Shown here in pieces: positions 1 through 64,000 of a DNA stretch of 64,000 nt (within the stretch, counting starts at the first letter, position 1; each line of letters begins with the position of its first letter). This DNA is from Colius striatus (Eukaryota > Chordata > Aves > Coliiformes > Coliidae). The stretch spans positions 23,848,501 through 23,912,500 of the forward strand of contig NC_084766.1 in the NCBI RefSeq assembly GCF_028858725.1. Direction: 5' to 3'. Under the pieces are notes generated by a model. It saw only the letters and a list, made by a program, of their open reading frames with translations, was not told the DNA's origin and did no database searches. The translations under genes and the position numbers were made by a program.

Positions 1-3000
1 GTAGGCGATGTACTGAGCAACATAGCCCAGGGCAATCCAGAGAGAGCACCATGTGCCCACAGCTTGCAGGTACCGCACATACATAGAGAGCTTCACCTAT
101 GGACCCATTCAGCCCGTCACTGCTGCCCAGCAAACTGCGGGCACTGACACAGCACAATGCTCCATCTGTCCATCCATCCATCCATCCATCTGTCCGTCCA
201 TCCGTCCATCCGTCCATCCACACCTTCTCCTCACCTTGCCAGTTTCCACAGTTTCTTTCTCAATCAGTTTCTGGCCCTTCACCATCTTGGGAGGCTCCTC
301 CTGGGCTTTCTTCCAGGAACTGGTGCTGGTTTTACTAAGGCTGCAGGGAGGTGGTGGGCACCATTACTCACCATGTGCTGGATGGGCCCTGCTCTCCTGG
401 GTAGCCATCCCTATGCCACATTGGGACTCCAGTGCTGAAGCCCTCTGAGAAATAGTGTCCTAACTAGGGCAGCTTTGAATGAGCCTTGTGGAAGCCTTAG
501 GCATTAGGCCTTAGGCCATGAAATCAGAACCCTCATCCCCAAAAGCAGAACCAGCCAGCAGCAGGAGTTTTAAGGAAGACCACAGAGTAACGCTATGATA
601 TGTTCAGGTGAGTAACCGCAAGATCAGATGCTCCTGACACAGTCCAGCTGGCGGTAGGAGCAGGTAGGGAGGCTCCCAGTCTCTTCTCTGCAGGAACCCC
701 CCAGGGAAGCCCTCAGGGCCCCCCTCTCCTAGGGAGGCAATGTAGGGGCCACGGGAGAGTGCTGAGAGCTCACATCAAGTTCCCACCTGCGACTGAACTC
801 TTTCCGATGGATGCTGGCCTCTCGCTTCAGGGTCATGGTCACCACATCATCAGGTCTCTCTTCCACGCAAGGGTCAATGCCATCATCACCCTGCTCTTCA
901 TCCCCAGCTAAAGCAACAGCTACAAGCACAAGAGTGAGGGAAGGCAGGGTTAGGCACTGAGGAGAGAGCAGATCCCATGTACCACACCTCTGTCCTGCAT
1001 CCCAGGCCTGGGCTGTGTACTACCACCACTCATGACACCTTCTCCAACCCTGCTGCAAGCTCAGTTCAGCAGGAGGAGGAAGAAATCCATTATGCTGTAG
1101 AGAGAACTGCCAGGGGACGTAGGGCTGAAGGCCTGCATGGAGGCAGTCCCTGCTGCTGGCTTATCCCAGTACCACTGGTGGGATCTCAAGCTGACATTTG
1201 TGCTTGTTTAGTAGGTGCCCGGTTTGGTAGATCACATCACACCAGTTCAGGAACATCTCTTTGAGCAAGTAGAGGTGGGTCCTGTGGAGTTAGGCTGGGA
1301 ATAGCCAGGCTCCAGCTGGGCAATGGGGCTGAGCCCAGGCAGGGTGAGCATCCACCTGACATGACACTGCTCTTTCCCAAAGTGACACGATAAAGATGAA
1401 ATGTTATCCAATAGCATGTTTAGAATAAGCCAAAGGATCTCTCTCACCCCAGCATCACTAAGGTACGGAGCCTGCTGCTGCACAAGAGTATGTGACCCTT
1501 AAACACAGATGAACTAAAAAGGAAGTGAAACAATTAAACAAGTCCTTCACTGTCTGCTAAACACAATGCCTGAGTACAAATCTTAGGCAGAAAGTCCTTG
1601 TGCTGCTGATTGCCAGAGCTGGGAAGGATTCGCAGCAGCCACCACAGGGGCCTGGGATGGATAGAGTCAGGTCAGACTGATGGATCAGGTCGTGGGGTTT
1701 TCAGAACCACAAGACATTTGTGCGGCCCCTCTAACTGCCGCAGCCCCGTTGTGTTCCCGGTACCTGTGGTCTTTTTCTCTGGAGCATCCTCCTCCTGGCT
1801 GCCGTACAAGTTCAGGAATTGGGCAAAGGCCCCCCTGCTTTCAAGCAAGGTGCTATAGGAGCCGTGCTCAGACACTGCTCCTGCCACCAGCACCACGATG
1901 TTATCGACCTGGGGCAGGAAACTGATACTGTGTGTCACCAAGATCCGTGTCTGCAACAAAGTGGTTGCAGGGTAGTGAGCATCAGAGCCCCCATGGCTCC
2001 CCAGCCATGGGCCTGCAGGCTCTCCATCCCCTGCTTGGGGATCTCTCCGTTTTTCACTGCCTGGCTATGGAGACACAAGACACCCTCTGGGGGACCCACG
2101 GGGCCTCTCCTGCCTGCTGCAGCCCCATGGGAAAACCCCAGCAGGGTTTGCCTCTGTCCCAGGCAAGAAACCTCAGGCTTCCCTGGATGGTTACCACCAC
2201 ACCAGTGACATTCCTGCCTGGCCAGGTGGTGGGGAGGAGGGCAGGGATGCTCACCTTCTTTTGCAGCAGCCCTTTTGGCCCCAGCACGTGGTCGAAGAGG
2301 TACTTGCCAACATGAGCATCCACGGCAGAGAGGGGGTCGTCCAGGATGTAGATGTCTGCATTGTTGTACACTGCCCGGGCCAGGCTGACTCGCTGCTTCT
2401 GGCCCCCACTCAGGTTAATGCCCTGGAAGGGAATTAACTCTCTGAGTGCTGAGCTGGCACAGGATGACAGCTTCGTCCTCTGCTGCAAGTGCTATGGGAA
2501 ACTTGTAATGCCCAGCTCTGATACCCTCTCTCCAATCTCGGTCTGGTCACCCGCAGGCAGTAGTTCCAGGTCTGGTAGGAGGGCACAAGCCTTGATGACC
2601 TGCTGGTACCTGGCTTCATCCAGTTCTGACCCAAAAAGGATATTGTCTCTCAGCGTGGCATTCTGGATCCAGGCCTGCTGGGGGACGTAGGCCACAGAGC
2701 CCTGGAAAGAAAGGCAAAAGGCTCATCAGAACATCAGTCTGGGCACTGGCACCTCAGGCAGCCTGTTCTTGCCCTGATCCACCATTTCAGCACCAGTCCT
2801 GCTGCCTCCCCAGTGAGCTCCCAGGCAGCCCCACAAGCCCCCCATGCCAGCCAGCAGCTCTCACCTGGATGTTGATGTGTCCCTTGATATTCTCCATCTC
2901 CCCCAGCATGGCACACACCAGCGAAGATTTTCCTGACCCCACAGCCCCTACCACAGCCACCAGGCTCCCGGGTGCAATGTCCAGGGTGACGCTGCAAGGA

Positions 3001-63893: not shown

Positions 63894-64000
63894 CTACAGG
63901 ATGTTCTTTGCGATGGCATTCAGGGTCCTCACTTTGGCCACATCCGCCACCTTGATGGAGTATTCAGGGGCAGAGAAGGATGCTCCCATGGCAACGTTCG
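63894..64000 (-). CDS. CUTC: CUTC last exon, third copy, cut by the right window edge
   Basis: 107 of the 112 bases of the CUTC terminal exon are present (stop 63894-63896, ending LNAIAKNIL), matching the other two copies. Whether this belongs to another truncated remnant or to the intact parental CUTC gene cannot be told here, because the distinguishing upstream exons lie beyond base 64000. Confidence 0.85.
   Translation of the reverse strand, partial: NVAMGASFSAPEYSIKVADVAKVRTLNAIAKNIL

Follow-up and report, generated by a model that had tools for sequence, protein, structure and literature searches.

A probable young segmental tandem triplication of ABCC2 in a bird genome

ABCC2 (MRP2) is the main pump by which the liver exports conjugated waste and drugs; in mammals it determines how much of the bile-pigment and glutathione conjugates, and of many drugs, passes into the bile. 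The closest described system is the single-copy vertebrate ABCC2 locus, for which we take the human gene to have 32 coding exons and the human neighbourhood to read DNMBP-ABCC2-CUTC-COX15. The bird locus described here is similar in that it holds an orthologous gene with 32 coding exons and the same neighbours, but it differs in carrying three readable copies with orphan CUTC tails between them. A second comparison is offered by the recent segmental amplification of detoxification and transport genes, such as the drug-selected amplification of ABCB1 and the CYP arrays. The likeness lies in head-to-tail units that share one non-homologous junction, and in the probable gain of extra copies by unequal exchange, with gene conversion; here, however, the gene is ABCC2, the genome is that of a bird and there is no known selecting agent. 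Segmental tandem duplication is of an ordinary kind, and it is the gene and the host that make the case interesting. Neither a bird ABCC2 array nor extra copies were found among the matches listed in the open-licence literature, at the level of titles and the beginnings of abstracts, and in the passages seen of PMC8388555, MRP2 occurs in a reference only.

The window, that is, the whole stretch of 64,000 nucleotides that was analysed, corresponds to 23848501-23912500 of contig C10 (39.2 Mb) in an assembly of 1.21 Gb and 191 contigs. Coordinates refer to the window; window base 1 is preceded by coordinate 0, and negative coordinates lie further to the left. An earlier note on this DNA had claimed that base 1 pairs with 24504 and 48956 and that three ABCC2 copies follow one another on the same strand at about 24.5 kb. 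Self-BLAST of the window recovered both pairings on the same strand, with 99.1% and 98.9% identity, and the tandem array as a whole is supported by the sequence tests. The note had also seen homology continue to both window edges and had suggested that the array may be longer. The array does run past the edges, by 5.8 kb on the left and 3.4 kb on the right, but more than three units are ruled out, since unit-to-unit homology ends at -5801 and 67408. These bounds come from a self-comparison over 204 kb, in which both flanks (60 kb left, 80 kb right) were added to the window; three units were obtained, and across the 204 kb there was neither a fourth unit nor a single N base. The zones at 17-20 kb and 41.5-44 kb, to which the note had drawn attention, contain the unit junctions 18698/18699 and 43172/43173. 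The units measure 24,500, 24,474 and 24,236 bp (units 1, 2 and 3) and are 98.8-99.5% identical to one another. The features are listed below.

-5801..18698 (in the window 1..18698), minus strand: tandem unit 1 (self-BLAST, edges read)
18699..43172, minus strand: tandem unit 2, complete (self-BLAST, edges read, three-way alignment)
43173..67408 (in the window 43173..64000), minus strand: tandem unit 3 (self-BLAST, edges read, three-way alignment)
18690..18706, no strand: junction of units 1 and 2, CUTC intron and sequence 3' of ABCC2 (edges read)
43164..43180, no strand: junction of units 2 and 3, with the breakpoint of the unit 1/unit 2 junction (edges read)
11606 (ATG) down to -4868 (end of the stop, outside the window), minus strand: ABCC2 gene 1, 1549 aa (spliced model)
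19637..36090, minus strand: ABCC2 gene 2, complete, 32 coding exons, 1548 aa (spliced model, family matches)
44112..60559, minus strand: ABCC2 gene 3, complete, 32 coding exons, 1549 aa (spliced model)
15186..17465, minus strand: orphan CUTC 3' piece of unit 1 (CutC profile match 16895-17035, exon mapping)
39662..41939, minus strand: orphan CUTC 3' piece of unit 2 (CutC profile match 41369-41509, exon mapping)
63894-64005 (in the window 63894..64000), minus strand: last coding exon of CUTC (CutC profile, exon mapping)
13180..13421, no strand: segment of about 242-244 bp in units 1 and 2, missing from unit 3 (self-BLAST, alignment)

The spliced ABCC2 models were guided by a human ABCC2 sequence, which agrees with solved chains where the two were compared by eye, and the splice sites were then corrected by eye. 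Unit 1 served to settle the model, and there the exon finder itself partly imposes GT-AG introns and an open frame; the settled model was transferred to units 2 and 3 via the alignment. In these two units all of its splice dinucleotides and its reading frame are retained, and each of the three models has one terminal stop. The part of gene 1 inside the window (1..11606) comprises coding exons 1-21 and part of exon 22. The exon-5 donor seemed to be missing from gene 2, but this was a model artefact, as a GT donor lies 21 bases further in all units. In exon 8, near codon 305, a lysine run is one codon shorter in unit 2 (an in-frame 3-bp indel).

The identity of the genes as ABCC2, which the earlier note had proposed, was upheld by comparison with solved structures. 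Residues 5-1547 of gene 1 align onto residues 2-1543 of a solved ABCC2 chain with 2151 bits, the best match, compared with 1611 for MRP1 and 1520 for ABCC3. A second, 1541-aa ABCC2 chain gave 2051 bits; this chain is presumably that of rat, and the two mammalian ABCC2 chains compared are taken to be human and rat. Identity to the human ABCC2 sequence that guided the models is 63% (963/1530 aligned residues). In gene 2, TMD0_ABC, two ABC_membrane and two ABC_tran stretches make up the TMD0-TMD1-NBD1-TMD2-NBD2 architecture of a long MRP, and the MRP model was matched with 1854 bits (cut-off 1470). The Walker A and signature motif strings are intact in all three copies, and all three models end in the residues STAL, which we assume to be a class I PDZ-like C-terminus. 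By homology, the predicted product is an apical conjugate exporter. When the genome was searched with a 172-aa NBD1 query, nine exon matches of 108-116 bits were obtained, three per unit; among the best candidates scored, no ABCC2-grade NBD1 was found beyond the array, the next locus reaching 89 bits. Elsewhere, at C7:55448451-55515675, four ABC ATPase exon matches are spaced at about 21-24 kb, two of them with equal score and identity. They may represent a further tandem pair of genes for ABC transporters, for which ABCB-like is a guess.

The neighbourhood is that expected of an ABCC2 ortholog, with CUTC, COX15 and DNMBP represented. To the left of the array, the plus strand carries a BAR exon of the DNMBP type (the name rests on this one exon), and COX15 lies beyond CUTC on the opposite strand, its matches forming one cluster of four. 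The unit also carries a truncated CUTC piece, which was absent from the earlier description of the array. CUTC was mapped to nine exons, of which the first is short and uncertain; the terminal five are inside the unit and the others outside, which places the right breakpoint in a CUTC intron, and this is why every unit carries the last five exons. The whole gene runs right of the window, with unit 3 exons to 66173 and front exons at 67999-68737 beyond the array, and only unit 3, the rightmost, connects to these front exons. A front exon was matched by the CutC profile once, beyond the array (68000-68212), and each of the three units gave one match to a later exon (16895, 41369 and 65603). The joined CUTC protein, read from the first Met, scored 473 bits against the 287-aa solved chain 3iwp, a CutC homolog. 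The orphan tails of units 1 and 2 consist of the terminal five coding exons, lack the front exons and have kept their splice dinucleotides; 2 of 416 coding bases have changed, both in unit 2. At gathering scores, no RNA families were found in the window.

At both internal junctions, right-edge sequence is fused to left-edge sequence at one novel breakpoint, with a microhomology of 2 bp (CT) common to the two edges. Two hallmarks of a true tandem duplication are present at the locus: the units stand head to tail and share identical novel junctions, and the copies are distinct beyond two alleles, with no assembly gap. In the three-way alignment of 24193 gap-free columns, units 1, 2 and 3 carry 97, 74 and 89 private substitutions, respectively, with no three-state columns, and each unit has indels of its own. 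Pairwise substitution divergence is 0.70, 0.77 and 0.67%. The 242-244-bp segment missing from unit 3 sits at the end of a dispersed repeat, which we take to be CR1-like. A transposon insertion was rejected as the source of this 244-bp difference; in units 1 and 2 the repeat continues just as its relative at 141567 does, so that unit 3 is taken to have undergone a private deletion.

These figures bear on the possibility that the array was made by the assembly, either because alleles of a single-copy ABCC2 were laid end to end (a false heterotype duplication) or because a two-copy array was over-expanded. The divergence of 0.7% between copies falls within avian heterozygosity, which the parts seen of PMC9516828 put at 0.95% in one bird assembly and 0.34% in another, and false duplications on the same scaffold are described there too. 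The signs by which those passages of PMC9516828 recognise a false duplication are a read depth that is halved or very low, gaps that separate the two copies, discordant read pairs and one-copy k-mers. Of these, a gap between the copies is absent here. Moreover, haplotypes can yield at most two sequences, whereas three copies with 74-97 private substitutions and their own indels are present, and to derive them as a mosaic of two haplotypes would require 144 phase switches, one about every 170 bp. A precise breakpoint that is identical at two junctions, a CUTC front exon found only once and a single COX15 cluster likewise speak against an artefact. Since the copies are mutually distinct and one breakpoint is repeated, the misassembly of two alleles of one gene cannot account for the array, and the two-allele artefact as the sole cause is ruled out by the private substitutions and the 144-switch mosaic. 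An artefact in the wider sense is considered improbable. The duplication may also be real and its count wrong, with two copies on one haplotype and one or two on the other. We regard it as probable that the locus is a real array of readable ABCC2 genes that arose by young segmental tandem triplication at the ancestral locus.

The order of events can be proposed from the junctions and the site pattern. In the first step, a single duplication would have fused a break in the CUTC intron with another that lies about 930 bp past the ABCC2 stop, leaving two ABCC2 genes, one orphan CUTC tail and the 2-bp microhomology. The joining would have gone by microhomology or by end-joining. In a second step, unequal crossing-over between the two units would have added the third and copied the junction. 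In a third step, gene conversion would have shuffled variants among the copies. Private sites are in fact patchy in their order (145 runs compared with 173 when shuffled, p=0.0004) and uneven across 2-kb windows (p=0.02). Divergence at the CUTC end, which covers 15186-18698 in unit 1 and the corresponding parts of units 2 and 3, is lower than in the remainder by a factor of 2.4 (17/3511 compared with 243/20682 columns, p=9e-5), which suggests that this end was homogenised later or is constrained; it includes a 950-column stretch without any substitution. The residues that look derived, when polarised by eye against the two mammalian ABCC2 chains, are shared in conflicting ways: five by units 2 and 3, two by units 1 and 3 (525, 612) and two by units 1 and 2 (640, 1363). 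Taken together, the patchy sites and the conflicting sharing make gene conversion among the copies likely. The avian neutral rate is near 2e-9 per site and year, at which 0.7% divergence would correspond to about two million years, although gene conversion would hide a greater age of the array.

Each unit holds the whole coding gene and the 3.6 kb that separate the ABCC2 ATG from the CUTC stop, which presumably include the ABCC2 promoter, and ATTAAA poly(A)-like signals are found about 377 and 920-927 bases past the ABCC2 stop in each unit. All copies could therefore be transcribed from promoters of their own. In the simplest function, up to three times the transcript would raise the dose of one apical conjugate-export pump. 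As far as sequence can tell, a young dosage expansion that is probably functional is the most likely reading, and for a physiological dosage effect taken by itself the chances would be about even.

The functional step alone is contested by the view that the array is a real but selectively neutral copy-number variant of the individual or population, its genes readable through youth only. This is a serious though less than even prospect, and its odds overlap with those of the best explanation. The copies are young, about 0.7% apart, and the orphan CUTC pieces are intact as well. No stop codon was seen in the three copies, and as only about two were expected under neutrality, open frames alone prove little. 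However, the private codon changes comprise 30 nonsynonymous and 27 synonymous ones. With a mutation spectrum drawn from the 201 noncoding variants of the array, 69% of the non-stop changes should be nonsynonymous under neutrality, so that replacements fall short of expectation (p=0.008, omega about 0.5). Nei-Gojobori dN/dS is 0.27-0.36. In addition, the near upstream and downstream sequence is the same for each ABCC2 gene, which also counts against neutrality. Overall, the codon changes suggest purifying selection across the copies taken together. The p values against neutrality are 0.07, 0.46 and 0.02 for units 1, 2 and 3, respectively, the second from 9 nonsynonymous and 5 synonymous changes; the signal is not significant for units 1 or 2 alone, so that a copy could be relaxed.

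It has also to be considered whether replacements in TMD2 give units 2 and 3 pumps of a different substrate range. These units have in common the TMD2 changes S1000Y, V1085M, G1112D and V1118I, where unit 1 keeps the residue of the two mammalian ABCC2 sequences, and with N517S these are the five residues that look derived by eye. Against this, TMD1 and TMD2 (within our own domain limits) take 20/30 of the nonsynonymous and also 15/27 of the synonymous changes. Synonymous changes being frequent there too, there is no sign of positive selection, and positive selection in TMD2 is unsupported by the domain counts. The conflicting residue sharing also argues against such divergence, which appears rather unlikely. 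In the passages of PMC10912322 (MRP2 structure) that were searched, nothing was found on the residues that vary among the copies. A lineage-specific fixed expansion, in which two copies with altered TMD2 and one ancestral copy would give both a higher dose and broader conjugate export, is likewise unlikely; if true, biliary and renal conjugate export would be broader than in other vertebrates.

With the young dosage expansion as the preferred reading, a natural three-copy ABCC2 would amount to a dosage experiment in an animal. The three-copy state would bear on why drug and toxin tolerance differs among bird species, and one-to-one orthology of ABCC2 is not to be assumed in birds.

That the host is a bird, as the earlier note had it, agrees with the mitochondrial contig (C191, 17,283 bp). 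Its ND3 carries an extra base, which is an avian trait, and among solved chains its cytochrome b is closest to 1bcc, presumably chicken, with 769 bits compared with 654 for the next chain. The gene order, which also points to a bird, is cytb-Thr-control region-Pro-ND6-Glu-remnant-Phe, with ND6 named by eye. One full control region of 1470 bp lies between tRNA-Thr and tRNA-Pro, and a 299-bp remnant follows tRNA-Glu; in several bird orders, according to published abstracts, the control region is duplicated and its neighbours are rearranged. A nuclear copy of mitochondrial cytochrome b is present at C39:20733308-20733866.
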